This document shows, piece after piece, positions 1,971-50,389 of a stretch of DNA of 64,000 nt. The translations under genes and the position numbers were made by a program. Where the stretch lies: positions 310,001 to 374,000 of the forward strand of contig NZ_VOHE01000001.1 of the NCBI RefSeq assembly GCF_007859305.1, written 5' to 3'. Within the stretch, counting starts at the first letter, position 1; the number at the start of each line of letters is the position of its first letter. A model generated the notes under the pieces. It did not search any database. It was not told the origin of the DNA and saw nothing but the letters and a program-made list of their open reading frames with translations. This DNA comes from Luteimonas wenzhouensis (lineage in GTDB: Bacteria; Pseudomonadota; Gammaproteobacteria; Xanthomonadales; Xanthomonadaceae).

Positions 1971-1978
1971 GGGCCCGC

Positions 1979-17353: not shown

Positions 17354-18751
17354 TCAGCGCGCGCCGCGCCTGAACAACACGACCTCGACCGTCTGCAGCA
17401 GGATCATGAAGTCGAACACCAGGCCGTGGTTCTTGACGTAGAACAGGTCGAACTTCAGCTTCTCCCGCGCATCGTCCACCGAGGCCCCGTAGGGATAGCG
17501 CAGCTGGGCCCAGCCGGTCAGCCCCGGCTTCACCGAGTGGCGGACGTTGTAGTAGCGGATCTGCCCGTTGAGCTGGTCGACGAACTGCGGCCGCTCCGGC
17601 CGCGGGCCGACGAAGCTCATGTCCCCGGCCAGGACGTTGAACAGCTGCGGCAGCTCGTCAAGCCGGGTCATGCGGATGAAGCGGCCCACGCGGGTGGTGC
17701 GGTCGTCGTTGCTCTTGGCCCAGACCGGCACCCCGTCCTTCTCGGCGTCGGTGCGCATGCTGCGGAACTTGACCAGGTCGAAGGTGCGCCCGCCCTCGCC
17801 CACCCGGGTCTGGCGGTAGAGGATCGGCGATCCGGATTCGAGCCAGACCGCCAGCGCCACGGCCAGCATCACCGGCCAGGCCACCAGCAGCAGCACCAGT
17901 GCGGCGGCGATGTCGAAGGCGCGCTTGGTGATCCGGCGCGGGAAGGAGTGGTCGAAGCCGCCGGAGAACACCAGCGTGGACGGGTCCGCGATCTCGAGCT
18001 TGATCAGCCCCGCTTCGCGCTCGAAGAACGCGGGGAGGTCGACGATCGACACGCCCATCTGCGCACACTGCAGGATCTGCTCCATCGGCAGGCCGCCACG
18101 ACGCTCGTCCGGCGCGACCACGATCTCGTGGGCGTGGTGGTGCAGCGCGGCCTGGTACAGGGTGCGGCCTTCCAGCGGCACCAGCAGCCCGGGCGCGACC
18201 ACCTGCGGCTGGCCCTCGATCGGGATGAAGCCGATCACGGTGAACGCCTTGCGGTCGCTGCGCCGCCGCAGCCGGCGGTTGATCAGGTCGGCGTTGTTGC
18301 CGGCGCCCAGGATCAGGATCCGGCGCTTGAACGCCTCGACCCCGAACAGCCCGTACACCAGCAGGCGCAGGGTGCAGATCAGGACGAAGCCGATCGCCAG
18401 CGAGATCGCCAGCACGCCGCGGCCGATGTAGGTGGCCGGTACCAGGTAGTACAGCACCAGCAGGCCGACGCCGCCGAAGGCGAAGCCCAGGCCGATGCGC
18501 AGCATCAGGTCGATGCGGTTGTGCCGCACGTGCGGCTGGTAGAGGCCGAACGCCGCCATGGCGCCGGTGACGAACAGCGCCACCAGCAACGTACGCACCG
18601 GCGCGGTCTCGACGAACAGGCCGCGGCTGGCGGGATCGTCGATGAAACGCAGCCAGACGGCCACCGTCACCGACAGCAGCAGCACCGCCAGTTCGAGCAG
18701 CCACAGCAGCCGGACGGTGCGGTTGGCCCGGCTCGCGAACGCGCCCCTCAT
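17354..18751 (-). CDS. Undecaprenyl-phosphate sugar-1-phosphate transferase (polyprenyl glycosylphosphotransferase, XrtA-associated type)
   Basis: A 465-residue initiating transferase. Four to five N-terminal membrane helices (residues about 12-125) are followed by a cytoplasmic NAD-like domain (RRILILGAGNNADLINRRL). The C-terminal catalytic part begins with the helix-hairpin ITKRAFDIAAALVLLLVAWPVMLAVAL. It carries SPILYRQTRVGEGGRTFDLVKFRSM, the Asp-Glu of RLDELPQLFNVLAGDMSFVGPRPERP, and KPGLTGWAQLRYPYGAS. Function: transfer of the first sugar phosphate onto undecaprenyl phosphate, starting the repeat unit. The context matches the EpsB-like family of exosortase loci. The start at 18751 lies just before the first helix. 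Confidence 0.9.
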   Translation of the reverse strand: MRGAFASRANRTVRLLWLLELAVLLLSVTVAVWLRFIDDPASRGLFVETAPVRTLLVALFVTGAMAAFGLYQPHVRHNRIDLMLRIGLGFAFGGVGLLVLYYLVPATYIGRGVLAISLAIGFVLICTLRLLVYGLFGVEAFKRRILILGAGNNADLINRRLRRRSDRKAFTVIGFIPIEGQPQVVAPGLLVPLEGRTLYQAALHHHAHEIVVAPDERRGGLPMEQILQCAQMGVSIVDLPAFFEREAGLIKLEIADPSTLVFSGGFDHSFPRRITKRAFDIAAALVLLLVAWPVMLAVALAVWLESGSPILYRQTRVGEGGRTFDLVKFRSMRTDAEKDGVPVWAKSNDDRTTRVGRFIRMTRLDELPQLFNVLAGDMSFVGPRPERPQFVDQLNGQIRYYNVRHSVKPGLTGWAQLRYPYGASVDDAREKLKFDLFYVKNHGLVFDFMILLQTVEVVLFRRGAR

Positions 18752-23699: not shown

Positions 23700-24998
23700 A
23701 TGCCCGACACCAGCGGCCAGCCGCGCCTGAAGATCCTGTTCCTGCACAAGCAGATCCTGTTCCCGCGCGACACCGGCGGGAAGATCCGCGTGCTGAACCT
23801 GCTCAAGCACCTGGCGCGCTGGCACGACGTGACCTACGTATGCAACCTGCGCCGGGGCGAGGAAGCGTTCCTGCCCGAGATGGAGGCGCTCGGCATGAAG
23901 GTCGAGGCGGTGCCGGGCGAGGTCTCCCCGCACGGCAGCGCCGGCTTCTACCTCGGCGCGCTCGCCAACCTCGCCTCCTCGCGTCCCTACGCCGTCGACC
24001 GCAACTACGATCCCGCGCTGCGGCGCCGGATCGCGGACCTGCTGCGCCGCGAGGCCTTCGATCTGGTGATCTGCGACACCGTGCAGATGGTGCGCCACCT
24101 CGCCGGGCTCGAACTGCCGCCCTCGATCCTGTTCCAGCACAACGTGGAGGCGCAGATCCTCGAGCGCCACGCGGAGGTCACCAGCGGCGCCCTGATGCGC
24201 GCCTACATGCGCAACCAGTACCGCCGCATGGCCGCGTTCGAGGCCGCGTGCGGCAACCACTTCGACCACGTGATCGCGGTCAGCCGCCAGGACGCGCGGA
24301 TCTTCGCCGAGCGTTATGGCTGGCGCGACGTCGACGCGATCGACACCGCGGTCGACACCGAACTGTTCGAGCCGCGTCCCGGGGACGAGGTCGAGGGCCG
24401 GGTGATGTTCCTCGGCTCGATGGACTGGCTGCCCAACCAGGACGGCATGCGCTGGTTCTGCGAGGAGGTCTGGCCGCGCGTGCGCGAACGCCGTCCCGAC
24501 GCGACCTTCCAGATCGTCGGCCGCAACCCGCCGCCGTCGGTGCGCGCGCTGGCCGAGCGCCCCGGGATCGAGGTCACCGGTTCGGTGCCGGACGTGCGCC
24601 CCTACCTGGCCGCGGCCTCGGTGGTGGTGGTGCCGCTGCTCGTCGGCGGCGGCACCCGGCTGAAGATCTACGAGGCGATGGCGATGGCACGGGCCACGGT
24701 CAGCACCACGATCGGCGCCGAGGGCCTGCCGGTCGAGCCCGGCACCCATTACCTGCAGGCCGACGATCCGGAGGCGTTCGCCGCCGACGTGCTGCGCCTT
24801 CTCGACGACGCGGATCTGCGGCGCCGGATCGGCGACGCCGCCGACGCCTTCGTCCGCGCGCACTACGGCAGCGAGCCGATCGCCCGCCAGTTCGAGGCGA
24901 TCTGCCTGGACGTGCTCGCGCGCGTCCGCGAGCGCGGCAGCGTGCGCCGGGCCACGCCCCACCCTTTCCTTTCCAGTAGCGAGCCACTGAAATCATGA
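23700..24998 (+). CDS. Glycosyltransferase (GT4-like), PEP-CTERM/exosortase-associated type
   Basis: A 432-residue GT-B protein. It begins LKILFLHKQILFPRDTGGKIRVLNLLKHL and shows CDTVQMVRHLAGLELPPSILFQHNVE, then MFLGSMDWLPNQDGMRWFCE and ATFQIVGRNPPPSVR. The donor motif is VPLLVGGGTRLKIYEAMAMA, with the acidic pair replaced in part by RLKIYE, and AEGLPVEPGTHYLQADD follows. This pattern (MDW-PN-DGM, GGGTRLKI-EA) is what I recall for the sugar transferase that accompanies exosortase A loci. The last four bases overlap the dehydrogenase start (ATGA). Confidence 0.85.
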   Translation: MPDTSGQPRLKILFLHKQILFPRDTGGKIRVLNLLKHLARWHDVTYVCNLRRGEEAFLPEMEALGMKVEAVPGEVSPHGSAGFYLGALANLASSRPYAVDRNYDPALRRRIADLLRREAFDLVICDTVQMVRHLAGLELPPSILFQHNVEAQILERHAEVTSGALMRAYMRNQYRRMAAFEAACGNHFDHVIAVSRQDARIFAERYGWRDVDAIDTAVDTELFEPRPGDEVEGRVMFLGSMDWLPNQDGMRWFCEEVWPRVRERRPDATFQIVGRNPPPSVRALAERPGIEVTGSVPDVRPYLAAASVVVVPLLVGGGTRLKIYEAMAMARATVSTTIGAEGLPVEPGTHYLQADDPEAFAADVLRLLDDADLRRRIGDAADAFVRAHYGSEPIARQFEAICLDVLARVRERGSVRRATPHPFLSSSEPLKS

Positions 24999-26320
24999 GC
25001 AATGTTGCGGTGTTCGGCCTGGGCTACGTCGGTTGCGTGACCGGCGCCTGCCTGGCCAGGGACGGTCACTCCGTCATCGGCGTCGACATCGACGCGGACA
25101 AGGTGGCCGAGATCAACGCCGGCCAGGCCCCGATCCGGGAAAACGGCCTGGACGAGCTGGTCGCCGGGCAGGTGGCCGCCGGCCGCCTGGCCGCCACCAC
25201 CGACACCGCCGAAGCGGTGGCGAAGTCCGAGATCGCGATGATCGCGGTCGGCACGCCGTCGATGGACGACGGCAGCGTGACCACCCACGTGCTCGAGGCC
25301 GTCATCCGCTCGATCGGCAAGGCGCTGCGCGCCGCGCCCAAGTCCTACCACGTGGTGATCCGCTCGACCCTGCTGCCGGGCCTGCTGGAGACCCAGATGC
25401 GGCCGGCGCTGGACGAGGAGCTGGGCCCCGGCTTCCCGGCCGAAGTGGTCCTGTGCAACAACCCCGAGTTCCTGCGCGAGGGCTCGGCGCTCAAGGACTA
25501 CTACCACCCGCCGTACGTGCTGGTCGGCGCGGAGGACGAGGCGCACGCCCGGCCGGTGCTGGACCTGTACGCCGCGGTTGAGGCCGGCAAGCACGTCACC
25601 GACCCGCGCACCGCGGCGCTGGTGAAGTACGCCTGCAACAACTTCCACGCGGTCAAGGTGGCGTTCGCCAACGAGATCGGCGCGGTCGCCAAGGCGATGG
25701 GGGCCGACGGCCACGCGGTGATGCGCCTGGTCTGCGAGGACACCAAGCTCAACATCTCGCCGGCCTACATGCGCCCGGGCTTCGCCTTCGGCGGCTCCTG
25801 CCTGCCCAAGGACCTGCGCGCGATCAACCGTTTCGCCGAGCACGCGGCGCTGCGCCTGAACCTGCTGCCTTCGGTGATGGCCTCGAACGAGAACCAGCTC
25901 AAGCGCGCGCTGAAGATGGTGCGCGACGAGGGCAGCCGCAAGATCGGCCTGGTCGGCCTGAGCTTCAAGAACGGCACCGACGACCTGCGCGAGAGCCCGA
26001 TGGTCGAGATGGTGGAGACGCTCACCGGCTGGGGCTACTCGGTGAAGATCTACGATCCCAACGTCAGCCTCGGCCGCCTGCGCGGCCGCAACCTGAGCTA
26101 CATCGACCGCCACCTGCCGCACCTGGCGCAGATGCTGGTGTCGGAACCGGAGGAAGTCCTCGAGCACGCCGAGCTGCTGCTGCTGTGCACCGACGTGGCC
26201 AACGCCCACGACTGGCGCGGGCAGGCGAAAGGCCGGGTGTTCGACCTGCGCACCGACCTCGCCCGTCCGGTCGAGCCGGCGCCCGAGGCGCCACGACAGC
26301 GGGCCGTCGCTGCCGCCTGA
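24995..26320 (+). CDS. NDP-sugar 6-dehydrogenase (GDP-mannose/UDP-glucose type)
   Basis: A 441-residue enzyme. The N-terminal Rossmann fold starts NVAVFGLGYVGCVTGACLA. MIAVGTPS lies near residue 85 and the catalytic Lys region is VKYACNNFHAVKVAFANEIG near 210. The catalytic Cys is in GFAFGGSCLPKDLRAI near 262-275, and the C-terminal domain has VGLSFKNGTDDLRESPMVEM. It oxidises the C6 alcohol of a nucleotide sugar to the uronic acid in two NAD steps. The FGGSCLPKD form and ASNENQ helix look closer to AlgD-type GDP-mannose dehydrogenases than to classic UDP-glucose enzymes, but the substrate is uncertain. It supplies an acidic sugar for the polymer and ends the operon. Confidence 0.88.
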   Translation: MSNVAVFGLGYVGCVTGACLARDGHSVIGVDIDADKVAEINAGQAPIRENGLDELVAGQVAAGRLAATTDTAEAVAKSEIAMIAVGTPSMDDGSVTTHVLEAVIRSIGKALRAAPKSYHVVIRSTLLPGLLETQMRPALDEELGPGFPAEVVLCNNPEFLREGSALKDYYHPPYVLVGAEDEAHARPVLDLYAAVEAGKHVTDPRTAALVKYACNNFHAVKVAFANEIGAVAKAMGADGHAVMRLVCEDTKLNISPAYMRPGFAFGGSCLPKDLRAINRFAEHAALRLNLLPSVMASNENQLKRALKMVRDEGSRKIGLVGLSFKNGTDDLRESPMVEMVETLTGWGYSVKIYDPNVSLGRLRGRNLSYIDRHLPHLAQMLVSEPEEVLEHAELLLLCTDVANAHDWRGQAKGRVFDLRTDLARPVEPAPEAPRQRAVAAA

Positions 26321-26677: not shown

Positions 26678-27550
26678 TCAATCAGGGAAGCGCGCCTGCA
26701 TCCAGTCCTGCAGGCAGGCGAACAGCTTCTCGCGGTGCCTGCGCACGTAGAAGGTGTGGTCGCACTCGGGCCAGTACTCGGTGGCCATGTTCGACGAGCG
26801 CATCACCGGGCCGAAAGCCTCCAGCGCCTGGCGGCGGTGGTTGTGGTACGAGGCCACCCCGCCGGTATACAGCAGCAGGACCTGGCAGCCGCGCGCGTCC
26901 AGCGCCAGCAGCCGCCTGCTCGCCTCGTCGCGCGTGGGGAAGTCGCGCAGGTCGTCGTTGCCGACCGCGCGCGGCGGCTCGCGCCGCGGCACCAGGCGCC
27001 GCCACAGCGCCCGCAGTACGCGCAAGGGATTGAGCAGGCGCGGCAGGTAGTGGCGCAACTTGTGCCCGCGGGTGCGGTAGCTGACCCCGTCGAGCAGGAC
27101 CAGTCCGGCGACCCGGGGCTCGAGCGGCGCGATGTTGAAGCTGTCGTCGGCGCCCGAGCAGATGCCGCCGAGCACGAACCGGCGCACGCCGGCCTCGCGT
27201 TCGAGCAGGGCCATCGCCGCGCGCACCTCGTCGCGCTTGCGGTTGTCGCTGTGCTGGCTCGACAGCGGGCTGTCGCCCAGCCCCGACTGGTCGAAGCGCA
27301 GCACCACGTAGCCCTCCGCGGCCAGGCGGCGCGCCATCTGCACGTAGAGCCGGAACGGCCCCATGCGGTGCACCAGGCCGGCGTTGAGCAGGATCAGCGC
27401 GGTCGCGCGCGGGGCGCGGCCGGCCGGGAGCGTCGCGACGCCGACCAGGCCGTCGCCGAAGCGGTGGACGCGCTCCTCGTAGCCGCGGTCGGACGGCGCG
27501 GACGTGTCGTGCGCCGCTGCGGGCAAGGGCACGGCGGCATGGAGGTTCAT
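26678..27550 (-). CDS. Alpha/beta hydrolase, exosortase A system-associated hydrolase type
   Basis: A 290-residue alpha/beta hydrolase. An oxyanion-region strand (ALILLNAGLVHRMGPFRLYV) and VLRFDQSGLGDSP are followed by the nucleophile elbow FVLGGICSGADDSFN, which reads G-x-C-x-G and so puts Cys in the nucleophile position. The catalytic His is in ECDHTFYVRRHRE near the C-terminus. Exosortase A loci often carry two small hydrolases of this kind with a Cys elbow. It is the last gene of the peptide-synthetase operon, and its ATG overlaps the NRPS stop (ATGA at 27547-27550). It may act as the releasing or editing type II thioesterase of the assembly line. That role is inferred. Confidence 0.75.
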   Translation of the reverse strand: MNLHAAVPLPAAAHDTSAPSDRGYEERVHRFGDGLVGVATLPAGRAPRATALILLNAGLVHRMGPFRLYVQMARRLAAEGYVVLRFDQSGLGDSPLSSQHSDNRKRDEVRAAMALLEREAGVRRFVLGGICSGADDSFNIAPLEPRVAGLVLLDGVSYRTRGHKLRHYLPRLLNPLRVLRALWRRLVPRREPPRAVGNDDLRDFPTRDEASRRLLALDARGCQVLLLYTGGVASYHNHRRQALEAFGPVMRSSNMATEYWPECDHTFYVRRHREKLFACLQDWMQARFPD

Positions 27551-30500
27551 GCGGGCATCTCCTGGATCAGGGCGGCGACCTCGGCCACGCTGCGCCGCGG
27601 GAACACCTGCGCCTCGAACCGCGAGGCATCGTCCCAGTCGGGCATGTCGGAGGCCTGCAGCACCACGTGCGTGGCCTCGAGGCCGGCCTCGCGCTGGGCG
27701 GCGACGAAGGCCTCCGCCCCGTCCATGGCCTCGGCCCAGGTCACCACGGTCACACGGCTGCCGGCCGGCAGCACGGCCTGGCGGAAATCGAGCGCTTCCA
27801 GCGCGGCCGGCAGCCCGGGCGACAGGTCGAAGCCCAGCAGTTCGTCCGCGGCCACCGGAGCCCGGCCTTCGCGCAGGTAGCGCCCTGCCGCGGTCAGCTG
27901 GACGCGGTGCTGGCCGCGCCATCGCGCCAGCAGCCGCGCGCCCGACAGGCACGGATCCCACAGCACCAGGTCCACGGCCTGGCCGCGCGCCAGCGCCGCG
28001 TGCAGCACCGGCAGGCTGGCGCTGCGCAGGGCGAGGATCCTGGGGTCGCCGCCGATGAACGCCTGCGCCCGGCCCAGGTCGCCGGCCATCCCCTCGAGGG
28101 TCAGCTCGGCCGAATCGCCCGCGGACTCGCCGCTGCCGTACCAGTCGAAGCGCAGCGCCTGCCCGCCGGACGCGGCCAGCGCGTCGCACACCGTCCACAG
28201 GGCGCGCTGGCAGACCACGCCTTCCTGCAGCAGGGGCGCGGGCACCAGCAGCGGACGCCCGGCGCGGGCGTCGGCCCTGGCATGGTGCATGCCGAACAGC
28301 CGCCGCGGCGCGTCGCCGAAGTACAGCGCGCGCTCGCCGCGCACGACCTGGGCGACGGACGGGGGCGGCACCGCAGCGGGCGCCGGCACGGCCGGCGCCG
28401 GCGCACCGGGCAGCGACTGCAGTGGCAGTTCGGCGGCGAGGTGGGCCAGGGTCTGGGTCGCCAGCGGCATCAGCCGGATGCGGTGTCCGGTCTCGCGCGC
28501 CACGCGGCTGGCCATCTTCGCCGCCAGCATCGAGTGGCCGCCCAGGTCGAAGAAGTTGTCCTGCGGGCCGGCTTCCACGCCGAGCAGCGCGGTCCACAGC
28601 TCGGCCAGGTACTGCACGCGCGGGTCGGCATGGCGGCCGCCACCCGTGGCCGCCGCGGCCGGCGTGGCCTGCGCCGGCGCCGGCAGCGACTTGCGGTCGA
28701 CCTTGCCGTTGGGCAGCAGCGGCAGTGCGTCCATCGCCACCACGTGCTGCGGGACCATGTAGGCCGGCAGCGTGCGCCGGAGCGCGGCCTGCAGCGCGGC
28801 CTCGTCGGGGCCGGCACCGGCACGCGCCAGGTACACCACCAGGCGCTGGTCGCCCGGTTGGTCTTCGCGCACCACGGCCACCGCGCGCGACACCCCCGGC
28901 TGCGCCTCCACCACCGCCTCGATCTCGCCGAGCTCGATGCGGTGGCCGCGCAGCTTGACCTGGAAGTCCATCCGGCCCAGGTGCTCGATCACGCCGTCCT
29001 GGCGCCAGCGGGCGCGGTCGCCGGTGCGGTACAGGCGCGGCGGCAGGCCGGTGTCGTGGTCGACCGGGGCGACGTGGTCGGGAATGAACTTCTCGGCGGT
29101 CAGTTCCTCGCGGCCGAGGTAGCCCAGGGTCACGCCGGCGCCGCCGATGCACAGTTCGCCCGCCACGCCCGGCGGGCAGACCTGGCCGCGCGCGTCCAGG
29201 ACCCACACGGTGGTGTTGGCGATCGGCCGCCCGACGTGGATGTCGGGGGCGTCGCCCGGCGCGGCCTCGATCCGGGCGCAGGTGGACCACACCGTGGTCT
29301 CGGTGGGGCCGTACACGTTCCACAGTTCCGCCCCCGCCGCAAGCAGGCGCGAGGCCAGTTCGGCCGACATCGGCTCGCCGCCGCACAGCGCGCGGAACTT
29401 CCCCTGCGCACGCCAGCCCGCGTCCAGCAGCAGGTGCCAGGTGGACGGCGTGGCCTGCAGCACGGTGACCGATTCACGTGCGAGCAGCGCGGCGAGCTCG
29501 TCGCCCTCGAGCGCCTGTTCGCGCGCGGCCAGCACGATCGTCGCGCCCACCGCCAGCGGCAGGAACAGCTCCAGCACCGAGATGTCGAACGAGGTCGTGG
29601 TGACCGCGAGCAGCACGTCGTCCGCGTCCAGGCCGGGCGCCTCGCGCATGCTGTCGAGGAAGTTGAGCACCGCGCCGTGCGGCACCGCCACGCCCTTGGG
29701 CTTGCCGGTGGAGCCGGAGGTGTAGATCACATAGGCGGCCGCCTCGCGCCCGACCGGGTCGGCGGCGTCGTGCACGGCCGCGGCCGCGTCGATCACCGCC
29801 GCATCCGCGTCGAGCAGCACCAGCCGCCCGCGCTCCAGCCCCAGCGGATCGGCCAGCGCGCCCTCGGCCACCACCTGGGCCAGGCCGGCGTCGCTGGCCA
29901 TGTAGGCCAGGCGGTCGGCCGGATAGGCCGGGTCGAGCGGCACGTAGGCCGCGCCGCAGCGCCATGTCGCCAGCAGCGTGGCGAGCAGGTCGGGCGAGCG
30001 CTCCAGGCACACGCCGACCCGGTCTCCCGGCCGCACGCCGCGCGCGCGCAGGGCGCCGGCGATGCGCGCGGCGCGCGCGTGCAGCTGCGCGTAGGTCAGC
30101 GCCGTCGTGCCGAAGCGCAGCGCCACCTGGTCCGGCGTGCGCGCCGCCTGCGCGGCGAGCAGGCCATGGGCCGAGCGGTAGGGCGGCAGCGGCCGGGTGG
30201 TGGAGTTCCACTCGGCCAGGCGCGCGCGGTCGGACGGGGACAGCAGGTTGGCATCGCCGATGGCCTGGGCCGGGTCCTGGCACAGCGAGCGCAGCAGCGC
30301 CTCGAAGCGCTCGGCGATCGCACGCGCCCCCGCGGCGGTGATGATGTCGGCGTTGTAGCCCATCGCCCCCGACAGCCCGGCCGGATGCTCCAGAAACCAG
30401 ATGCCCAGGTCGTTGGCCATCCCCTTCTGGAACATCAGCAGGTGTTCGTGGGACAGGTCGCCCCAGTTGAGGTTCCTCGCGCGCACGTCCTGGAACGAGA

Positions 30501-33500
30501 ACACCGCCTGGTACACCGGCGAGCGCGAGGGATCACGCGGCACCTGGAGTTCGCGCACCAGCCGTTCGAACGGCAGGTCGGGATACTCGAACGCCTCCAC
30601 CACGCCGGCCTTGACCTCCTCGACCAGGCGCAGGAACGGCATCGACGGGTCGAGCCTGCGGCGCAGCGGCAGCAGGTTGACGAAGAAGCCCATCACCTTC
30701 TCGAGGGCCTCGGTGGGGCGGTTGCGGAACGGCAGTCCCACCACCAGGTCGTCCTGGCCGCTGAGCCGGTGCAGCAGCACGTAGTAGGCCGCCAGCAGGG
30801 TCATGAACAGCGTGGCGCCGGCCCGGGTTCCGACCTGGCGCAGGGCCTCGGTGGTGGCCAGGTCCACGTGCACCCAGTCGGTGCCGCCGGTGCCGCTGGC
30901 CTTGGCCGGCCGCGGCAGATCCTCGGGCAGGCGCAGCGGTTCTGTCGCACCGTCCAGGTGCCGCTTCCAGAACTCCAGGTGGCGGTCCACCGCCCCGCCC
31001 GCGAGCGCGTCCGCGCGCCAGGCCGCATATTCGGTGTAGGTGGTCTCCAGCGGCGGCAGCGGCGAGGGCCGGCCGGCGGCGAAGGCCTCGTACAGCGCCG
31101 ACATCTCGGTGTAGAGGATGTCGAACGACCACCCGTCCCAGATCACGTGGTGGGTCATGAAGTACAGGACGTGGTCGTCCTCGGCCAGCCGGTACAGCCG
31201 GGCCCGGAACAGCGGCGCGCGGTCGAGCTGGAACGGCACCGCGGTCTGCGCCTCGAGGTCGTCGTACAGCGCACGCATGCGCGCGTCCTCGGGCAGGTGC
31301 GACAGGTCGAGCGGTGGCAGCAGCGGCACGTCGACCTCGTCGAGCACCTTCTGCCGGGGGCCATCGTCGTCCTCGACGATGATGGTGCGCAGCGCCGGCT
31401 GGCGACGCACCATCTCGGCGAAGGCGCGGGCGAAGGCCTGCTCGTCCATCGGCCCGCGCAGGCGGTGCGCCGACGGGGTGTTCCAGGTCACGCCGCCCGG
31501 CTCGATCTGCTCGAGGATCCACAGCCGCTCCTGCATCGGGGTGAGTGGCGCGGTGGATGGATCGGCGAGCTTCGGGATCGTCGGCGCGGCGGCCTGCGCG
31601 ACGCCGGCGCGGGCGCGCAGCAGCTCGCTGAGCTGGCGCGCGGTCGGCGCGTCGAACAGCTGGCGCAGTGACACCGTGGTCGCCAGTTCGCGCCCCAGGC
31701 GCGCGCACAGCTGCGCGGCCAGCAGCGAGTGCCCGCCTGATTCGAAGAACCCGTCGTCCATGCCCAGCTGCGGGCGGCCGAGGATCTGCCGCATCGCGCC
31801 GAGCACCTGCGCCTGCAGCGCATCCTCGGGCGGCGTGACCGCCGCCGGCACTTCGGGCTGGGCCGCGGCGATGGGCGCCGGCAGCGACTTGCGGTCGACC
31901 TTGCCGTTGGGCAGCAGCGGGATCGCGTCCAGGCGCACGAAGTGTTGCGGCACCATGTAGTCGGGCAGGCTTGCCCTGAGGTGCGCGACCAGATCGGCGT
32001 CGGACGCCCCATGCCCCGGTGCCGGCACGACATAGGCCACCAGGCGCACGTCGCCCGGCCGGTCCTCGCGCGCCATCGCCACCGCCCGCGCCACGCCCGG
32101 GTGGACGAGCAGCTGGCTCTCGATCTCGCCCAGTTCGATGCGGTAGCCGCGCACCTTGACCTGGAAGTCGAGCCGGCCCATGTGCTCGAGCTGGCCGTCC
32201 GTGCGCCAGCGGCCGCGGTCACCGGTGCGGTACAGCAGCGGCTGCGCGATGCCGGTGCCGAAGCCACGGCTGGCGTCGGCGAAGGCGTCGGGCAGGAAGC
32301 GTTCGGCGGTCAGCTCCGGGCGCGCCAGGTAGCCCAGGGTGACGCCTTCGCCACCGATGCAGATCTCGCCCGGCACGCCCAGCGGGCATGGCTGGCCGTG
32401 CTCGTCGAGGATCCAGACCTGGGTGTTGGCGATCGGGCGGCCGATGTGGATGTCCGGCAGCGCGCCGGCGGCGGCCGGCTGCACGCAGGTGGCGGTCGAC
32501 CAGACCGTGGTCTCGGTCGGCCCGTACAGGTTCCACAGCTCGCCGCAACGCGCCAGCAGCGCCTGGGCCAGGTCCGGCGGCAGCGGTTCGCCTCCGCACA
32601 TCGCCTTGAAGCCGGCGCTACCCTGCCAGCCGGCCTCGAGCAGCAGGCGCCAGGTGGCGGGCGTGGCCTGCATCGCCGTGATGCCGGCCTCGCGCAGCAG
32701 GTCGACCAGGGCCAGGCCGTCGATCGCGCTCTCACGCCCGGCAAGCACGATCTCGCCACCCACGCTCAGCGGCAGCATCAGTTCCAGCACCGCGATGTCG
32801 AACGACAGCGTGGTCACCGCCAGCAGGCGGTCCTGCGCGTCCAGCCCGGGCTCGGACTGCATCGAGGCGATGAAGTTCGATACCGCCCGGTGCGGCACCA
32901 CCACGCCCTTCGGGCGGCCGGTGGAGCCGGAGGTGTAGATGACGTAGGCCGGGGACTCGGGATCGGCCGCGCCGGCGTCGCGGCCCAGCCGCGTGGCCGG
33001 CAGCGCCTCGAGCTCGTCGGCCAGGGCATCGAGCGCCAGCACCGGCCGCCCGCGCAGGTCGAAGCGCGCGGCATGGGCCTGCTGGGTGACCAGCGCGGCC
33101 AGGCCGGCATCGCCGGCCATGTAGGCCAGGCGGTCCGCGGGGAAGCCGGGGTCGAGCGGCACGTAGCCGGCGCCGGACTTCAGGATGCCCAGCAGTGCGG
33201 CAACCATGTCGGTGCCGCGGTCCATGGCCAGACCGACCAGGGCGCCCTTCTGCACGCCGTGCCCGCGCAGCAGGCGGGCGATCCGGTTGGCACGCGCTTC
33301 GAGTGCGGCGTAGTCCAGGCAGCCGTCCGGAGCGCTCAGGGCGAGGCGCGACGGTTCCCGGTCGCACTGCCGTTCGAACAGCTCGTGCATCCGGCACTCG
33401 CGGTCGAACGGCGTCGGCGCCGGCTGCAGCGCGGCCAGCTCGGCGAACAGTGCGCAATCCACCAGCGGCAGCCGCGCGATGGGCTCGTCGGGCGCCTCGC

Positions 33501-34836
33501 AGGCCTTGCGCAGCAGGCACTCGAACGCCGACAGCCAGCGGCGCACGGTCGCGGCATCGAACAGGTCGGTGTTGTACTGGGTTTCCAGCCGCAGCCGCCC
33601 TTCCACCTGCACCGCGTTGATCGACAGCTCGAAGTTCTCGTAGCTGCGCGGGTTGGTGGTGAAGTCGAGCTCCAGGCCCGGGAAACCGCTGCGCTCCTGG
33701 TCCAGCGCCTGGTCGATGTTGAACATCACGCTGACCAGCGGCAGGCGTGCGGGATCGCGCGCCATGTGCAGCTTCTTGAGCAGCGTGCCGAAGGTGTAGC
33801 GCTGGTGTTCGATCGCGTCCAGCAGCAGGGTCTGCGCGCCATCGAGCACGTGGGCGAAGCTCTGCTCGGGCGCGAGCTCGAACTTCAGCGGCAGCAGATT
33901 GACGCAGTGCCCGACCAGGTGCTCGTGGCCGTCCACCGACTGTCCCGCGGCCGGGATACCCACCACCACCTCGGATTGCCCGGCCACGCGCGACATCAGG
34001 GTCGCGAACGCACCCAGCAAGGTGGCGAACAGGCTGGCACCGCGGCGCGCGCCCATGCGCCGCACCGCGGACACGAGCTCGGCGTCGAGCACGTAGTCCT
34101 CGCGCCGCGAGGAGAAAGTGCGCCGGGCCGGTCGCGGCCGGTCGGTGGGAAGGTCGAGCACCGGCGGGGCGCCGGCGAACCGGGACAGCCAGTACTGCTC
34201 GTCCTCGACGCTCCCCGGCGAACCGGGGCGCATCGCCTCGGCCAGTGCGTAGTCGGCGAAGCTCTCGGCCGGCGGCAGCGCGGAAGCGGCCTCGTCGCCG
34301 CGCGCATAGGCCGTCCCCAGCTCCCGCACCAGCACCCACCACGACCAGCCATCGCACACGATGTGATGCGCGTGCATCAGCAGCACGTGTTCCTGCGGCG
34401 ACAGCTTCAGCAGCTCGGCCCGGAACAGCCGCCCCTGGGCGAGGGCGAACGCGGTCTCCACGCCGGCACGGCGGCGCTGGGCCAGCGCGGCCTCGCGCCC
34501 GGCCTGCGGCAGCTGCGACAGGTCGACGACCTCCAGCGGCAGCGGCGCCGGCTCGAGCACGCAGAACGTTTCCCCGTCGGGACCGAAACTGGCGCGCAGC
34601 GCGTCGTGGCGGTCGACCACCAGCTGCAGCGCACGCTGGAGCCGGGCCACGTCCAGCGGCCCGCGCAGCTGCAGCGAAACCGACTCGTTGTAGGCCAGCG
34701 ACGCGTCCTCACCCAGCTGCGCCGCCAGCCACAGCTCGCGCTGCGGCTCGGTGGTCGGGACCACCCGCGCCAGCGCCCCGCCCGCGAACGGGTCGTAGTC
34801 GACCGCGCTCACGTTCCTCCCGCGCCCGTCCGCCAT
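27547..34836 (-). CDS. Two-module NRPS (C-A-T-C-A-T) with C-terminal alpha/beta-hydrolase-like domain
   Basis: A 2429-residue synthetase. C1 has HHIVCDGWS at residue 157. A1 has YTSGSTGRPKG near 634 with pocket residues read by hand as D-I-L-Q-M-G-L-V-W-K. T1 has its Ser at 1037 (FFESGGHSLL). C2 has HHVIWDGWS at 1229. A2 has YTSGSTGKPKG near 1705 with pocket D-I-L-Q-L-G-V-V-W-K, and T2 has its Ser at 2102 (FFDLGGHSML). Both pockets resemble the published glycine signature. No epimerase or methyltransferase domain is present. Residues about 2160-2429 form an alpha/beta-hydrolase-like domain (LRFDWYGSGESAGDSAEL) in place of a thioesterase; the elbow region ILALRSASLP lacks G-x-S/C-x-G. It starts 5 nt after the upstream PKS stop. 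Product unknown. Confidence 0.92.
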   Translation of the reverse strand: MADGRGRNVSAVDYDPFAGGALARVVPTTEPQRELWLAAQLGEDASLAYNESVSLQLRGPLDVARLQRALQLVVDRHDALRASFGPDGETFCVLEPAPLPLEVVDLSQLPQAGREAALAQRRRAGVETAFALAQGRLFRAELLKLSPQEHVLLMHAHHIVCDGWSWWVLVRELGTAYARGDEAASALPPAESFADYALAEAMRPGSPGSVEDEQYWLSRFAGAPPVLDLPTDRPRPARRTFSSRREDYVLDAELVSAVRRMGARRGASLFATLLGAFATLMSRVAGQSEVVVGIPAAGQSVDGHEHLVGHCVNLLPLKFELAPEQSFAHVLDGAQTLLLDAIEHQRYTFGTLLKKLHMARDPARLPLVSVMFNIDQALDQERSGFPGLELDFTTNPRSYENFELSINAVQVEGRLRLETQYNTDLFDAATVRRWLSAFECLLRKACEAPDEPIARLPLVDCALFAELAALQPAPTPFDRECRMHELFERQCDREPSRLALSAPDGCLDYAALEARANRIARLLRGHGVQKGALVGLAMDRGTDMVAALLGILKSGAGYVPLDPGFPADRLAYMAGDAGLAALVTQQAHAARFDLRGRPVLALDALADELEALPATRLGRDAGAADPESPAYVIYTSGSTGRPKGVVVPHRAVSNFIASMQSEPGLDAQDRLLAVTTLSFDIAVLELMLPLSVGGEIVLAGRESAIDGLALVDLLREAGITAMQATPATWRLLLEAGWQGSAGFKAMCGGEPLPPDLAQALLARCGELWNLYGPTETTVWSTATCVQPAAAGALPDIHIGRPIANTQVWILDEHGQPCPLGVPGEICIGGEGVTLGYLARPELTAERFLPDAFADASRGFGTGIAQPLLYRTGDRGRWRTDGQLEHMGRLDFQVKVRGYRIELGEIESQLLVHPGVARAVAMAREDRPGDVRLVAYVVPAPGHGASDADLVAHLRASLPDYMVPQHFVRLDAIPLLPNGKVDRKSLPAPIAAAQPEVPAAVTPPEDALQAQVLGAMRQILGRPQLGMDDGFFESGGHSLLAAQLCARLGRELATTVSLRQLFDAPTARQLSELLRARAGVAQAAAPTIPKLADPSTAPLTPMQERLWILEQIEPGGVTWNTPSAHRLRGPMDEQAFARAFAEMVRRQPALRTIIVEDDDGPRQKVLDEVDVPLLPPLDLSHLPEDARMRALYDDLEAQTAVPFQLDRAPLFRARLYRLAEDDHVLYFMTHHVIWDGWSFDILYTEMSALYEAFAAGRPSPLPPLETTYTEYAAWRADALAGGAVDRHLEFWKRHLDGATEPLRLPEDLPRPAKASGTGGTDWVHVDLATTEALRQVGTRAGATLFMTLLAAYYVLLHRLSGQDDLVVGLPFRNRPTEALEKVMGFFVNLLPLRRRLDPSMPFLRLVEEVKAGVVEAFEYPDLPFERLVRELQVPRDPSRSPVYQAVFSFQDVRARNLNWGDLSHEHLLMFQKGMANDLGIWFLEHPAGLSGAMGYNADIITAAGARAIAERFEALLRSLCQDPAQAIGDANLLSPSDRARLAEWNSTTRPLPPYRSAHGLLAAQAARTPDQVALRFGTTALTYAQLHARAARIAGALRARGVRPGDRVGVCLERSPDLLATLLATWRCGAAYVPLDPAYPADRLAYMASDAGLAQVVAEGALADPLGLERGRLVLLDADAAVIDAAAAVHDAADPVGREAAAYVIYTSGSTGKPKGVAVPHGAVLNFLDSMREAPGLDADDVLLAVTTTSFDISVLELFLPLAVGATIVLAAREQALEGDELAALLARESVTVLQATPSTWHLLLDAGWRAQGKFRALCGGEPMSAELASRLLAAGAELWNVYGPTETTVWSTCARIEAAPGDAPDIHVGRPIANTTVWVLDARGQVCPPGVAGELCIGGAGVTLGYLGREELTAEKFIPDHVAPVDHDTGLPPRLYRTGDRARWRQDGVIEHLGRMDFQVKLRGHRIELGEIEAVVEAQPGVSRAVAVVREDQPGDQRLVVYLARAGAGPDEAALQAALRRTLPAYMVPQHVVAMDALPLLPNGKVDRKSLPAPAQATPAAAATGGGRHADPRVQYLAELWTALLGVEAGPQDNFFDLGGHSMLAAKMASRVARETGHRIRLMPLATQTLAHLAAELPLQSLPGAPAPAVPAPAAVPPPSVAQVVRGERALYFGDAPRRLFGMHHARADARAGRPLLVPAPLLQEGVVCQRALWTVCDALAASGGQALRFDWYGSGESAGDSAELTLEGMAGDLGRAQAFIGGDPRILALRSASLPVLHAALARGQAVDLVLWDPCLSGARLLARWRGQHRVQLTAAGRYLREGRAPVAADELLGFDLSPGLPAALEALDFRQAVLPAGSRVTVVTWAEAMDGAEAFVAAQREAGLEATHVVLQASDMPDWDDASRFEAQVFPRRSVAEVAALIQEMPA

Positions 34837-34841
34837 GCCGT

Positions 34842-42299
<7,458 letters not shown>

Positions 42300-42359
42300 C
42301 CGCCGGTTCCTGCACTGCAAACGGGATCAGGGACGGCACAAGGCCAGCCCGGCACGCGC

Positions 42360-43121
42360 TCAGCGGTCCGCCAGCGGCTCCAGCAGGCAGGGGGCAGCGT
42401 CGGGCACCGAGGCCAGGGCCAGCACCCAGCCACGCCCACCGTCCAGTGCCTGCAGCCGGACCGCACGCCCGCCGAACACGGGACCGGGCAGCGGCAGCGC
42501 GACACCTTCGGGAGCCTGGAACCGGTCCATTTCCAGTTCCAGCCCGATCCCCGCGGCCTTGAGCAGGGCCTCCTTGCGCACCCAGAGCCGGAGCAGTGCG
42601 TGACCGCGCGCGTCGGCCGCGGCGGGCAGCGCGCGGCGCTCGAGCGGGTGCGCCACCCGTTCCTCCAGTTCGGGCATGTCCCGGGCCCGGTCGGCAGGTT
42701 CCAGGTCGACGCCGACCGGACCGGTGGCGGTCAGCGCCAGCGCTGCCCGCTCGCCGGCGTGGCTGAGGCTGGTGTGCAGGCGGGCATCGGCCAGGCAGGG
42801 GCGGCCGCGTTCGTCGCGCGCCAGCTCCACCCGGGCCGGCGGCAGCCCCAGCAGCTCGGCGATCCACAGCCGCTGCAGGGCGTAGGCCGCGAGCAGGGCG
42901 TCCCGGTTGCCGGGGATCCGCTGCCGCGTCGCGCGCGCCGCGGCCTCGGCGCCGACCAGCGCCTCGATCCCCTCGAGCAGCGGCCGCCAGGCCCCGAGGT
43001 CGAACACCGCCACCGCAACCCCGGTCTCCAGGTTGATCCGCCGTCGCGCACCGGGCCTGCGGGCGAACGCCAGCGCGAACGGGTGCTGCTCGGACGGTTG
43101 CGGGGCACGTTGCCAGGGCAT
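42360..43121 (-). CDS. 4'-phosphopantetheinyl transferase (Sfp/HetI type)
   Basis: A 253-residue enzyme with the Sfp-family motifs: HTSLSHAGERAALALT near residue 118, GPVGVDLEPADRARDM with the Mg-binding Asp/Glu near 135-140, and LWVRKEALLKAAGIGL (W-x2-KEA) near 188. It transfers phosphopantetheine from CoA to carrier domains. It is the first gene of the minus-strand operon, 60 nt ahead of the megasynthase, so it probably activates the four carrier domains there, and perhaps also the free ACP at 16983-17243. The ATG at 43121 was chosen; an open extension upstream has low-complexity Arg-rich coding and was not used. Confidence 0.9.
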   Translation of the reverse strand: MPWQRAPQPSEQHPFALAFARRPGARRRINLETGVAVAVFDLGAWRPLLEGIEALVGAEAAARATRQRIPGNRDALLAAYALQRLWIAELLGLPPARVELARDERGRPCLADARLHTSLSHAGERAALALTATGPVGVDLEPADRARDMPELEERVAHPLERRALPAAADARGHALLRLWVRKEALLKAAGIGLELEMDRFQAPEGVALPLPGPVFGGRAVRLQALDGGRGWVLALASVPDAAPCLLEPLADR

Positions 43122-43236: not shown

Positions 43237-43932
43237 ATGGAACCATCCGACCTCGTCGCGCTCTTCGACCAGCAGGCCGCCGGCTACGACCGGCAATGGG
43301 CGAAGACCGCGCCCATTCGCGACTGCCTGTACTTCCTGCTCGAACCGTTGCTCGCCCCGCTTCCGGCCGAGGCCCGCGTGTTGTGCGTGGGAGTGGGCAC
43401 CGGCCAGGAGATGGCGCACCTGGCGGCGGCCCATCCCGGCTGGTCGTTCACCGCGGTGGAACCTTCCGGCGCGATGCTCGAGGCCTGCCGCCAGCGCGCG
43501 GACGCGGACGGATTCGCGACGCGCTGCCGTTTCCACCACGGCTTCCTCGAGACGCTGCCGGCCGATGCCCCCTACGATGCGGCGACCTGCTTCCTGGTCT
43601 CGCAGTTCATCACCGCGCGCGCCGAACGGGTGCGGTTCTTCTCGGGCATCGCTTCGCGGCTGCGGCCTGGCGGCCTGCTGGCCAGCACCGACCTGGCCGC
43701 CGACACCGCCGCGCCCGGCTACGACGTGCTGCTGCCCGCGTGGCTGCGGATGATGGCCGCCGCCGAGGTGGCGCCCGAGGCGATCGAACGCATCCGGCTC
43801 GCCTACTCGACCGACGTGGCGGTGCTGCCGCCGGGACAGGTGGAGGCGATGCTCGCCGACGCCGGGTTCGACGCGCCGACGCGCTTCTTCCAGGCCGGAC
43901 TGATCCACGGCTGGATCTCGCGCAGGCCCTAG
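43237..43932 (+). CDS. Class I SAM-dependent methyltransferase
   Basis: A 231-residue methyltransferase. It begins DLVALFDQQAAGYDRQWA, a common start of small-molecule methyltransferases. Motif I is VLCVGVGTGQEMAHLA near residue 50, motif II has FTAVEPSGAMLEACRQ near 75, and motif IV/V are CFLVSQFI and LRPGGLLASTDLA near 120-150. The acceptor is not recognisable. It is divergent from the phosphopantetheinyl transferase (115 nt apart) and could tailor the peptide product, or be an unrelated housekeeping enzyme. A hairpin terminator follows at 43981-44000. Confidence 0.8.
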   Translation: MEPSDLVALFDQQAAGYDRQWAKTAPIRDCLYFLLEPLLAPLPAEARVLCVGVGTGQEMAHLAAAHPGWSFTAVEPSGAMLEACRQRADADGFATRCRFHHGFLETLPADAPYDAATCFLVSQFITARAERVRFFSGIASRLRPGGLLASTDLAADTAAPGYDVLLPAWLRMMAAAEVAPEAIERIRLAYSTDVAVLPPGQVEAMLADAGFDAPTRFFQAGLIHGWISRRP

Positions 43933-44013: not shown

Positions 44014-44090
44014 TGGCGCGCCCGGAAGGATTCGAACCTCCGACCCCCAAGTTCGTAGCCTGGTGCTCTATCCAGCTGAGCTACGGGCGC
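44014..44090 (-). tRNA. tRNA-Arg (anticodon ACG)
   Basis: A 77-nt cloverleaf on the minus strand including an encoded CCA. The acceptor stem is GCGCCCG/CGGGCGC, the D arm AGCTCAGCTGGATAGAGC, the anticodon loop CTACGAA (anticodon ACG, reading CGN via inosine), and the T arm has GGTTCGAATCC. It is downstream of tRNA-Ser and csrA on the same strand. Confidence 0.95.
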
Positions 44091-44168
44091 GTGGCAGAAG
44101 CGGAATTGTGCCGACTCGGATGCCCTGTCGTCAATGCATGCCCGACGGATGTCCGCGTTGGCCGGAAC

Positions 44169-44261
44169 TGGCGGAGACTGAGGGATTCGAACCCTCGATG
44201 GAGCTTTTGACCCCATACTCCCTTAGCAGGGGAGCCCCTTCGGCCTCTCGGGCAAGTCTCC
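44169..44261 (-). tRNA. tRNA-Ser (anticodon GCT)
   Basis: A 93-nt class II tRNA with encoded CCA. The acceptor stem is GGAGACT, the anticodon loop CTGCTAA (anticodon GCT, reading AGC/AGU), and there is a long variable arm as expected for serine. The T arm has GGTTCGAATCC. It lies between csrA and tRNA-Arg. Confidence 0.95.
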
Positions 44262-44706: not shown

Positions 44707-47361
<2,655 letters not shown>

Positions 47362-47556
47362 GACGGGCCTGGGGGACGGCCGGGCGGTCTGGTCCTTCCC
47401 GCGACACTCCGACACGAGGCCCATGGCCAGGGCAGACAACCCGGTAAAGCGGCCAGATTAGCAAACCCGCCGCCCGCAGTCGCCGGGGCTGGCCTGTCGC
47501 GACGGGCCCGGGCGCGCGTGGCGACTGCCCGCGAGCCGTCCGGCCTGCCCTGCGGG

Positions 47557-48048
47557 CTAGACGTCCGGGTCGAACGGGTCGAACCGGGTCGCCGCGCGGA
47601 TGGCCTCGCCGTCGAATCCGCGCCGGGCGAGCAGGTCGGCGGCCTTGCGCCGCTGCGCCAGGTCCCTGGGGCCTTCCTCGCCGAACCGCCGACGCACCAG
47701 GTCGCGCGCAAGCTCGATCCAGTCGCCCTCGAACGTTGCCATGGCCAGCTCGATGGCCTCGCCGTCGAGCCCATGGGTGCCGAGTTCGGCGCGGATGTGG
47801 CGGGGACCGTAGCCGGCCGAGGCGCGGCTGCGCACCAGCGATTCGGCGAAACGCGCATCGTCCTGCCAGCCGGCCGCGGCCAGTTTCTCCACCGCCGCCC
47901 TCGCCTCCTCGGGCTCGACGCCGCGGGCGCCCAGCTTGCGGATCAGTTCCCGGCGCGAGTGCTCGCGCCGGGTCAGCAGGCCGAGCGCGCGCTGGACCGG
48001 GGTTTGCGGCTGGCGCGGGCGCCGCCGCTTCGGCGCGTGGTCGCTCAT
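47557..48048 (-). CDS. recX: Regulatory protein RecX
   Basis: A 163-residue helical protein with the RecX repeats: [99 protein letters not shown]. It modulates RecA filament growth and recombinase activity. It sits two genes behind recA on the same strand; its ATG overlaps the stop of the small ABM-domain gene (ATGA at 48045-48048). The stop is TAG at 47557-47559. Confidence 0.93.
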
Positions 48049-48347
48049 GCCGCCGGGGCGAGCCCGTGCCCACCCACGGGACGGGTCTCGGTGTGCTGGC
48101 CGAAGGCGGCGATCAGCGGCTTGCCGCGGGCGATCGCGCCGCGCACCGCGGGCAGCGCCAGCGAGGCGCGGTAGCGCCCGGCACTGTCCCGGCCCTCGGT
48201 GATCCACACCACGTCGGGGTTGCCGGGGCCTTCGGCCACCACGTCGCTGAGGCGGCCCGGCGTCGAATCCATGTTCTCGAGCAGGATCGCCACGGTTTCA
48301 TCGCGCCGGCCCGTCCGGGCCCTGGCGCTTCCGATCAGTCCGTACAT
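48045..48347 (-). CDS. Small ABM-domain protein (putative quinol monooxygenase)
   Basis: A 100-residue protein starting [21 protein letters not shown] with [21 protein letters not shown] and a C-terminal [12 protein letters not shown]. The length and ferredoxin-like pattern (short strand, helix, DVV-strand ending in a His/Glu motif) suggest an antibiotic-biosynthesis-monooxygenase/YgiN-type dimeric alpha+beta barrel. The reaction is unknown. It lies between recA and recX, overlapping recX by 4 nt, so it is probably co-transcribed with them. AAGGG precedes the ATG. Confidence 0.7.
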
Positions 48348-48546
48348 CTCCCCGCCCTTCGCGCCCGCGTCCCGGGCCCGTCGGCCATGATCACGCCGAC
48401 CGCCGCTGCCGGCACGTGGCATCGCGCCGGCCGGGACGCCACGCCGCCGATCCGGAAACACCCCGGCCCACATGCCGCGACCCGTCCCCGGCACGAGGGA
48501 GGGTCGCGGGAGGAGGCCGTCCCTGGCCGCGAAGTCCTGACAGGCC

Positions 48547-49587
<1,041 letters not shown>

Positions 49588-49747
49588 CGTGCTGGTCCTT
49601 GTCATGTTGAATTCGTGTTGGATGCATCCTTGCAGGCGCCCATCGCAAAAGCTGCGACGTGGGCGCCACGGCCGATCCTGGCGCCGCCCGGGCGGTGCGG
49701 CTGCCGGGCCAGGACGGCGGGCGCCGTGGGAAAACCCCGCACGGCGG

Positions 49748-50389
49748 TCACCGGTTTGGCCTCACCAGGCCGCAGTACAGGCCCTCGATGGCGAAGTCCT
49801 GGTCGGGCAGCACCTCGATCGGGGCGTGGTCGGGGTTGCGCGGCAGCAGCCGGATGCGGTCCTTGCCGATCTTCAGCAGCTTCACGGTGATGGCATCGTC
49901 CACCCGCGCCACCACGATCTGGCCGCTGCGCGCGTCGCGGGTGCGGTGCACGCCGATCAGGTCGCCGTCGAAGATGCCCTCGTCGATCATCGAGTCGCCC
50001 TTGACCTTGAGCAGGTAGTCGGGTGCCGGCGAGAACAGCACGCGGTCGAGCACGACGAAGTCGTCCGAGCCGATGTCGGCGCCGATCGGCAACCCCGCCG
50101 CCACCTGCCCGAGCACCGGCAGACGCAGGGCGTCGTCGTTGCCGGACGGCAGGTCCAGCGGCCGCTGCGCGGTGGCGACCGGCCGGGTCAGGCGGATGCC
50201 GCGGGCACGGCCCGGGACCCGCTCGATCGCGCCGGCGGACTCCAGCGCCTCGAGGTGGTACTGGGCGGCGCGGACGCTGCTGAAGCCGAGGGCCCGGGCG
50301 ATCTCGGCCTGCGAGGGCGGCACGCCCTCGGCCTCGATCCGCTCCGCGATCAGTTCGAGGATGGCCTGCTGGGTATCGGTCAGCGTCAT
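49748..50389 (-). CDS. lexA: SOS repressor LexA
   Basis: A 213-residue repressor-protease. The N-terminal winged helix has [19 protein letters not shown] and [24 protein letters not shown]. The cleavage site is Ala-Gly in [12 protein letters not shown]. The protease dyad is Ser in [12 protein letters not shown] and Lys in [10 protein letters not shown]. It represses SOS genes until RecA filaments trigger its cleavage. The palindromic box just upstream of its ATG (50392-50410) indicates autoregulation. The lexA-recA-recX order fits Xanthomonadaceae. Confidence 0.96.

Follow-up and report, generated by a model that had tools for sequence, protein, structure and literature searches.

A predicted beta-amino peptide assembly line among exopolysaccharide genes of Lysobacterales, with a hydrolase pair related to that of exosortase A loci

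The window analyzed here, a stretch of 64,000 nucleotides from Luteimonas wenzhouensis (contig NZ_VOHE01000001.1, positions 310,001 to 374,000), carries a minus-strand operon (26678-43121) for a hybrid nonribosomal peptide synthetase-polyketide synthase (NRPS-PKS) that ends in two alpha/beta-hydrolase domains, in an exopolysaccharide (EPS) locus. The chances are about even that this assembly line makes a peptide of a proline-derived beta-amino acid, glycine and glycine, and that the two hydrolases, hydr1 and hydr2, move it onto the lipid-linked unit of the EPS. Slightly more tentative is the wider reading that nonribosomal beta-amino peptides are attached to the exopolysaccharides of Lysobacterales and that hydr1/hydr2 is an uncharacterised carrier-to-glycan transferase, with the same role in exosortase A loci, where a single residue would be bound to an acyl carrier protein (ACP). 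The strongest argument is a double one: glycan genes alternate with those of the line in several local arrangements, and the line's release enzymes also occur in exosortase EPS loci, beside a lone ACP. If true, this would join modular NRPS-PKS chemistry with secreted polysaccharides, fields normally kept separate, predict polymers bearing positively charged unusual peptides, and give a concrete function to hydr1/hydr2 of the exosortase loci.

Genes were called by codon-position GC, and domains were assigned by Pfam/NCBIfam scans. Both confirm the gene layout given in a preliminary description of this DNA: a 4'-phosphopantetheinyl transferase (PPTase), two synthetases (NRPS1 and NRPS2) and a separate hydrolase. 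The domains are condensation (C), adenylation (A), thiolation or carrier (T), ketosynthase (KS), acyltransferase (AT) and ACP, in the following arrangement, all on the minus strand.

42360-43121, minus strand: PPTase, ACPS domain PF01648 (E 2.7e-13)
34842-42320, minus strand: NRPS1, half-C, A (Pro-type), T, KS, AT, ACP, class-III aminotransferase (Pfam and motifs)
41676-42269, minus strand: NRPS1, C-lobe of a condensation domain, without HHxxxDG (sequence and comparison with relatives)
40035-41567, minus strand: NRPS1, starter adenylation domain, code DVQFIAHVV (PF00501)
38436-39716, minus strand: NRPS1, ketosynthase (PF00109/PF02801)
37266-38147, minus strand: NRPS1, acyltransferase, motifs GHSVGE and HAFH (PF00698)
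34995-36314, minus strand: NRPS1, aminotransferase domain of the MycA type (PF00202)
27547-34836, minus strand: NRPS2, C-A-T-C-A-T and hydr2-like domain, both A domains Gly-type (Pfam, motifs, A-domain codes)
27550-28341, minus strand: hydr2-like alpha/beta-hydrolase domain fused at the NRPS2 C-terminus, Arg at the nucleophile place, a pseudo-hydrolase (alignment and model)
26678-27550, minus strand: hydr1-like alpha/beta hydrolase, Cys131, His265, Asp154 (TIGR03100, 88 bits)

By its start codons, the PPTase may begin with the ATG at 43121 or an internal GTG. The real start of NRPS1 is probably 42299, 42275 or 42266 (the gene call gives ~42299), and the gap between the two genes is ~40-90 bases, varying with the start codon chosen. 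NRPS1 and NRPS2 are separated by 5 bases, and NRPS2 overlaps the hydrolase gene by 4 bases. By eye, the motifs are intact: the KS Cys and both His, GHSVGE and HAFH of the AT, the carrier serines, TYGKVVGGG of the aminotransferase and HHxxxDG in both NRPS2 C domains. The Pfam scan of the operon detected no classic thioesterase domain.

NRPS1 looks like a starter protein because its N-terminal piece corresponds to the C-lobe of a condensation domain and lacks HHxxxDG; the Pfam scan of NRPS1 gave no Condensation match on this half domain. The starter code DVQFIAHVV is taken here to mean proline, and the DILQ-type code of both NRPS2 A domains presumably means glycine (in the code alignment, the final position of these Gly-type domains is shifted; by eye it reads V-W). 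Likewise, HAFH is assumed to mark a malonyl-type AT, and the lysine of TYGKVVGGG is presumably the one that binds pyridoxal phosphate (PLP). Among solved structures, the best match of the aminotransferase is 6kfm, mycosubtilin synthase subunit A (E 4.2e-127), and the sequence KS-AT-ACP followed by a class-III aminotransferase matches the order of NRPS-PKS lines of the MycA type, which form beta-amino acids. The same search was uninformative for the starter A domain: the alignments shown are near-copies of linear gramicidin synthase, and the prolyl-carrier ligase 6o6e appears only at 2.9e-63. The predicted chain would be proline extended by malonate, aminated at the beta-carbon, then glycine and glycine; with the code meanings assumed above, the A-domain residues agree with the product proposed in the preliminary description.

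Within the family, the starter A domains vary and the KS-AT-aminotransferase core is kept. Starter codes of the Pro, Val and Thr types and others are encountered among species, if their presumed meanings are right, so a series of such decorations may exist. In several Lysobacter loci (L053, L045, L061 and others), NRPS2 terminates in C-T or C-T-T. No adenylation domain was detected in this final module, whose carrier may be loaded in trans.

In the proposed mechanism, the last carrier domain would bear a short, positively charged peptide, most probably 3-amino-3-(pyrrolidin-2-yl)propanoyl-Gly-Gly. The Cys of the hydr1-type enzyme, which would be partnered by the fused hydr2-type pseudo-hydrolase, would attack the peptidyl thioester, and the peptide would leave the carrier. 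It would then be passed in the cytoplasm to an amino or hydroxyl group of the lipid-linked EPS unit, prior to export by the flippase and the polymerase/O-ligase. The line would be an enlarged carrier-hydr2-hydr1 module, which in canonical exosortase A EPS loci is built with a single ACP. The predicted elements of this scheme are the exact residues of the peptide, the nature of the acceptor, a transfer reaction in place of hydrolysis, and the attachment of the peptide to the polymer.

The last gene of the operon had been described as an exosortase-type hydrolase, and its best family is indeed TIGR03100 (hydr1), at 88 bits, under the cut-off of 168; no match over the cut-off occurs in the 70 family genomes searched. 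For TIGR03101 (hydr2), the counterparts in Variovorax (93.9 bits) and Methylibium (67.7 bits) are both under the cut-off of 202.75, and the family is absent for the fused domain of the window among the matches listed (25 families). Both domains are modelled as alpha/beta hydrolases (predicted local distance difference test scores of 87 and 88), with generic alpha/beta hydrolases as Foldseek matches. The two NCBIfam models are themselves typed 'hypoth_equivalog'.

For comparison, TIGR03100 is over its cut-off in 20 of 229 genomes of the class to which the window belongs; 18 of these 20 match exosortase A, 17 of them over cut-off. Sixteen of the 20 genomes supplied the canonical loci (G284, G313, G350 and G459 were left out), and in all 16 the order on one strand is carrier-hydr2-hydr1. 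In one of them (L235, from a genome without exosortase match), the carrier lies in one open reading frame (ORF) with a ligase-like domain. In the window, the terminal T domain stands in the place of the carrier and is followed by the fused hydr2-like domain and then by the hydr1-like gene.

The catalytic positions are shared as well. Alignments were made of 63 hydr1 and 60 hydr2 sequences linked to the line, all distinct after removal of genomes duplicated between two collections (75 and 70 rows before). The nucleophile Cys of hydr1 is present in 63/63 line-linked and 16/16 canonical sequences, its catalytic His in 62/63 and 15/16, with one gap in each set. At the nucleophile place of hydr2, Arg is found in 58/60 line-linked and 16/16 canonical sequences; the exceptions, L116 and Methylibium L137, have Gly. 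A clean marker distinguishes the two hydr1 groups: residue 154 is Asp in all 63 line-linked sequences and Asn in all 16 canonical ones. Profiles built from the line-linked hydrolases match their canonical counterparts with E-values of 1e-25 to 1e-38. The carrier profile was seeded from the same canonical loci, and its E-values flatter; the ACP of the window alone as a query finds the carrier in 7 of the 16. A Cys nucleophile with an inactive partner would, judging from these residues, suit a transfer reaction.

The linkage of the line to EPS genes was followed in a family sample of 198 genomes, including the one of the window (G000). The aminotransferase is matched at E <=1e-60 in 44 genomes, and the line was defined by a match below 1e-150, which leaves 40. 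Among named organisms, the closest relative found is Luteimonas sp. J29 (locus L081), with 99% in the aminotransferase. EpsB, the initiating transferase (TIGR03013), is present in 69 of the 198 genomes: 39/40 with the line and 30/158 of the others (hypergeometric 3e-21, relatedness ignored). It lies less than 25 kb from the line in 33/40 genomes. In five (G084, G089, G119, G120, G135) the two are on different contigs, and in G176 EpsB was seen only as a truncated piece at the edge of a contig.

A total of 37 neighbourhoods were mapped, from 30 of the 40 line genomes (window included) and seven relatives without aminotransferase. Left out were G084, G119 and G004, which have no KS-AT match in the stretch and all have a downstream flippase, and G120, G067, G171, G135, G086, G033 and G112. 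EpsB precedes the line on its strand, no more than 12 kb upstream, in 28/37 neighbourhoods, and a flippase follows it on that strand, no more than 10 kb downstream, in 25/37; in 10 of these 25, only 1-56 bases separate hydr1 from the flippase, which Pfam named PF01943 in three examples. In G000, EpsB and the flippase are elsewhere in the same locus, and so is EpsB in G028. The comparison of neighbourhoods that the preliminary description had proposed is thus favourable within Lysobacterales. Other local orders are encountered too: in Luteibacter sp. OK325 the line is followed by a glycosyltransferase, a deacetylase and an O-ligase, in Methylibium it is back to back with EpsB, a chain-length protein and a kinase, and G022 has another one again. 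That the line is an ordinary hybrid cluster which landed by chance beside an EPS locus is very improbable: 33 of 40 family genomes are linked, in several local orders, across two Lysobacterales families and Methylibium. What speaks for chance is the window itself, where only a UDP-glucose 6-dehydrogenase (UGDH) gene directly abuts the operon, and convergently.

The line without its aminotransferase is also found at EPS loci. Of the 30 EpsB genomes lacking the aminotransferase, 22 were inspected (four of these loci, in G003, G005, G057 and G061, on one side only), and seven hold a related KS and AT line beside EpsB without a full aminotransferase: G063, G015, G190, G101, G048, G005 and G011, the last in a diverged form. 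The remaining inspected genomes showed no line of this sort, except for G057, with a partial NRPS whose assignment is undecided. Judging from these seven EpsB-linked lines, the amination step is optional in the family.

Some further genes of these neighbourhoods were recorded. In Luteibacter sp. OK325, two ORFs without Pfam match (L209:5956-9300 and L209:9342-11558; 1114 and 738 aa) lie between EpsB and NRPS1. In G158, an extra C-A-T-thioesterase (TE) protein (L023:2300-5893) lies between hydr1 and the flippase, with matches in G191, G056 and G231. The same locus has a protein of the GINT1_N family (PF24793, L023:8610-10493), with a same-strand match after hydr1 in 14/40 rows; in G056, the ORF of this family continues, by eye, into an apparent GT2 domain.

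The EPS genes of the window itself are the following.

25010-26320, plus strand: UGDH (TIGR03026 over cut-off)
23700-24998, plus strand: glycosyltransferase, TIGR03087-like (under cut-off)
17354-18751, minus strand: EpsB, initiating polyprenyl glycosylphosphotransferase (TIGR03013, 540 bits, cut-off 393)
15400-17243, minus strand: ACP and TIGR03098-like ligase (ligase 477 bits, under the cut-off of 592)
7711-9213, minus strand: polysaccharide flippase, Wzx type (PF01943, Polysacc_synt, 40.2 bits, gathering 28.2)
6373-7650, minus strand: O-antigen-ligase-like protein (PF04932, Wzy_C, over gathering; TIGR03097 68 bits, under the cut-off of 188)
5058-6197, minus strand: PLP decarboxylase (TIGR03099, 557 bits, over the cut-off of 478)
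387-2743, plus strand: chain-length protein TIGR03007 (363 bits, over 279) and TIGR03018-like tyrosine kinase (under cut-off)

The locus had been called an exosortase A-type EPS locus. The EPS part of the label holds, with TIGR03013, TIGR03007 and TIGR03099 over cut-off; the ligase TIGR03098 is under its cut-off, and exosortase A (TIGR03109) is matched in 0/198 family genomes at E 1e-15, the window's own included. This absence is credible because the same model gives matches over cut-off in other genomes (2/32 and 17/20). As no exosortase A was found in the genome of the window, the label rests on the resemblance of the EPS genes: the EPS machinery is of the exosortase A kind but lacks the exosortase. 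The involvement of the exosortase itself, as suggested earlier, was rejected on this ground.

A dependence of the line on the trio of ligase, ACP and decarboxylase, also suggested earlier, does not hold as a general rule, judged on the decarboxylase, the only member counted. TIGR03099 is present in 10 of 70 genomes searched, four with the aminotransferase line (G000, G028, G022, G067) and six without (G003, G094, G123, G133, G185, G194). Five of the latter (G003, G123, G133, G185, G194) give no hydr1 match at 1e-12, and there this portion of the exosortase genes seems to do without its usual hydrolase.

On the other side of the operon, a methyltransferase gene (43237-43932) is divergent from the PPTase gene and, among 32 neighbourhoods, shared only by G028. 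It is followed by tRNA-Arg and tRNA-Ser (44014-44261) and by alaS, recX, recA and lexA (44707-50389).

Beyond the family, genome contigs were scanned and 80 loci retained out of 129 relatives, at least 10 of which are genomes already in the family count. EPS markers derived from the window and its kin, searched in fetched stretches of 3-21 kb, are present in 40/80 loci, three of which (L109, L120, L122) rest on one weak match. All loci are marked in Dyella (4/4), Frateuria (1/1), Luteibacter (8/8), Luteimonas (2/2), Lysobacter (8/8), Pseudoxanthomonas (5/5), Dokdonella (1/1), Methylibium (1/1), Ideonella (1/1), two Rhodocyclaceae metagenome-assembled genomes (MAGs; 2/2) and a betaproteobacterial MAG (1/1). 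Rhodanobacter has 2/4, with EpsB 12-14 kb off by coordinates in the remaining two, if the contigs are the same. Lysobacteraceae and Lysobacterales MAGs have 2/4, Mizugakiibacter 0/1 and other MAGs 2/9 (gamma 1/4, proteobacterial 1/2, Pseudomonadota 0/2, Planctomycetota 0/1). No marker was found in Xenophilus (0/2) nor in Piscinibacter, Vitreoscilla, Lautropia, Rubrivivax and a Burkholderiales MAG (0/1 each).

This Burkholderiales MAG (G219:C5:1360001-1440000, L201-L204) nevertheless carries a true exosortase A, EpsB and the peptide line along ~60 kb of one contig, EpsB lying ~50 kb and the exosortase gene ~36 kb away from the line. The genes beside its ligase-ACP pair were considered as hydr1/hydr2 and rejected, as they are NAD synthase and others.

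In a KS tree built quickly from 94 rows, seven changes account for the EPS label, against ~27 for shuffled labels, which also argues against a chance neighbourhood, although relatedness alone clusters labels and some labels were assigned from coordinates. A deep Lysobacteraceae branch (G100, G022, G011) is likewise EPS-linked. The EPS link is not confined to one shallow clade, yet it is not obligatory.

Several observations weigh against a peptide destined for the EPS, and Variovorax is the strongest of them. None of its 21 loci has an EPS marker, though the line, hydr2 and hydr1 are kept; markers derived from the window would miss unrelated polysaccharide genes, and 6/21 loci are shorter than 16 kb. 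Moreover, EpsB is over cut-off in 0/13 Variovorax genomes searched. Homologous operons far from EPS genes, which the preliminary description had named as refuting its proposal, are therefore found in this one clade; the product can thus occur where an EPS of this type is lacking. The distance between the line and EpsB is 690 kb in G013. A DnaJ-like gene on the opposite strand separates EpsB from NRPS1 in many loci, so that EpsB and the line may be transcribed separately. In the window, the EPS locus is adjacent to the operon as described earlier, while the abutting gene, UGDH, lies on the plus strand in convergent orientation. Lastly, many Lysobacteraceae loci share one site at alaS, so that part of the linkage is inherited position. 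Alanyl-tRNA synthetase is in the neighbourhood of 18/32 line-bearing loci and 9/22 loci without aminotransferase, and the alaS region may be a place where sets of surface genes are exchanged.

These points would fit a free small molecule, such as a signal, metallophore or antibiotic, with hydr1/hydr2 as an unusual thioesterase pair and the siting at EPS loci explained by shared conditions or by a surface-gene site. In Variovorax sp. WS11, for example, the line and hydrolases lie between folB/phosphatase genes and LysR/RND genes, and the C-A-T-TE protein of G158, similar to proteins matched in other loci, has a classic thioesterase. A free product is nevertheless unlikely, though it is the most serious of the alternatives: the EPS genes, flippase included, are interleaved on the same strand in the 25 Lysobacteraceae neighbourhoods given above, and the hydrolase pair is that of the exosortase EPS loci.

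Rather less probable still is that the peptide ends on another surface target (a lipid, a protein or the lipid carrier), as an anchor or a chain-end cap and not as a decoration of the repeat unit. The locus includes initiating transferase, flippase and O-ligase-like genes, whose substrates are lipid-linked glycans, which is compatible with such a fate. An anchor for exosortase-type sorting is unlikely because exosortase A was found in none of the family genomes of the sample.

Transfer to the lipid-linked EPS unit can be set beside three known systems. The exosortase A (XrtA) EPS loci carry an ACP, hydr2 (TIGR03101), hydr1 (TIGR03100), a ligase (TIGR03098) and a decarboxylase (TIGR03099). They share with the loci described here the EpsB, chain-length, kinase and glycosyltransferase families, the order carrier-hydr2-hydr1, and the Cys of hydr1 and Arg of hydr2. 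Here, on the contrary, no exosortase was found, a multimodular NRPS-PKS provides the carrier as its last domain, with hydr2 fused to this carrier, and hydr1 is under cut-off, with Asp where the 16 canonical members have Asn.

Mycosubtilin synthase MycA has the same order of KS-AT-ACP followed by an aminotransferase, and its aminotransferase is the nearest among solved structures. Its starter is a fatty acid. In the line of the window, an amino acid starter would enter via an A domain; the line also differs in lying in an EPS locus and in lacking a classic thioesterase domain. The modified viosamine on the flagellin of Pseudomonas syringae is a glycan with a carrier-derived acyl group. The idea of an ACP-bound acyl moved to a sugar is alike, with a single acyl there and a modular peptide line here.

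In the open-licence literature searched, no modular NRPS-PKS feeding hydr2/hydr1 inside EPS loci was found, and a word search of Haft 2006 (PMC1569441) gave no match to the terms used. The individual parts are of known kinds, their combination appears undescribed, and there is a real chance that it reveals the function of hydr1/hydr2.

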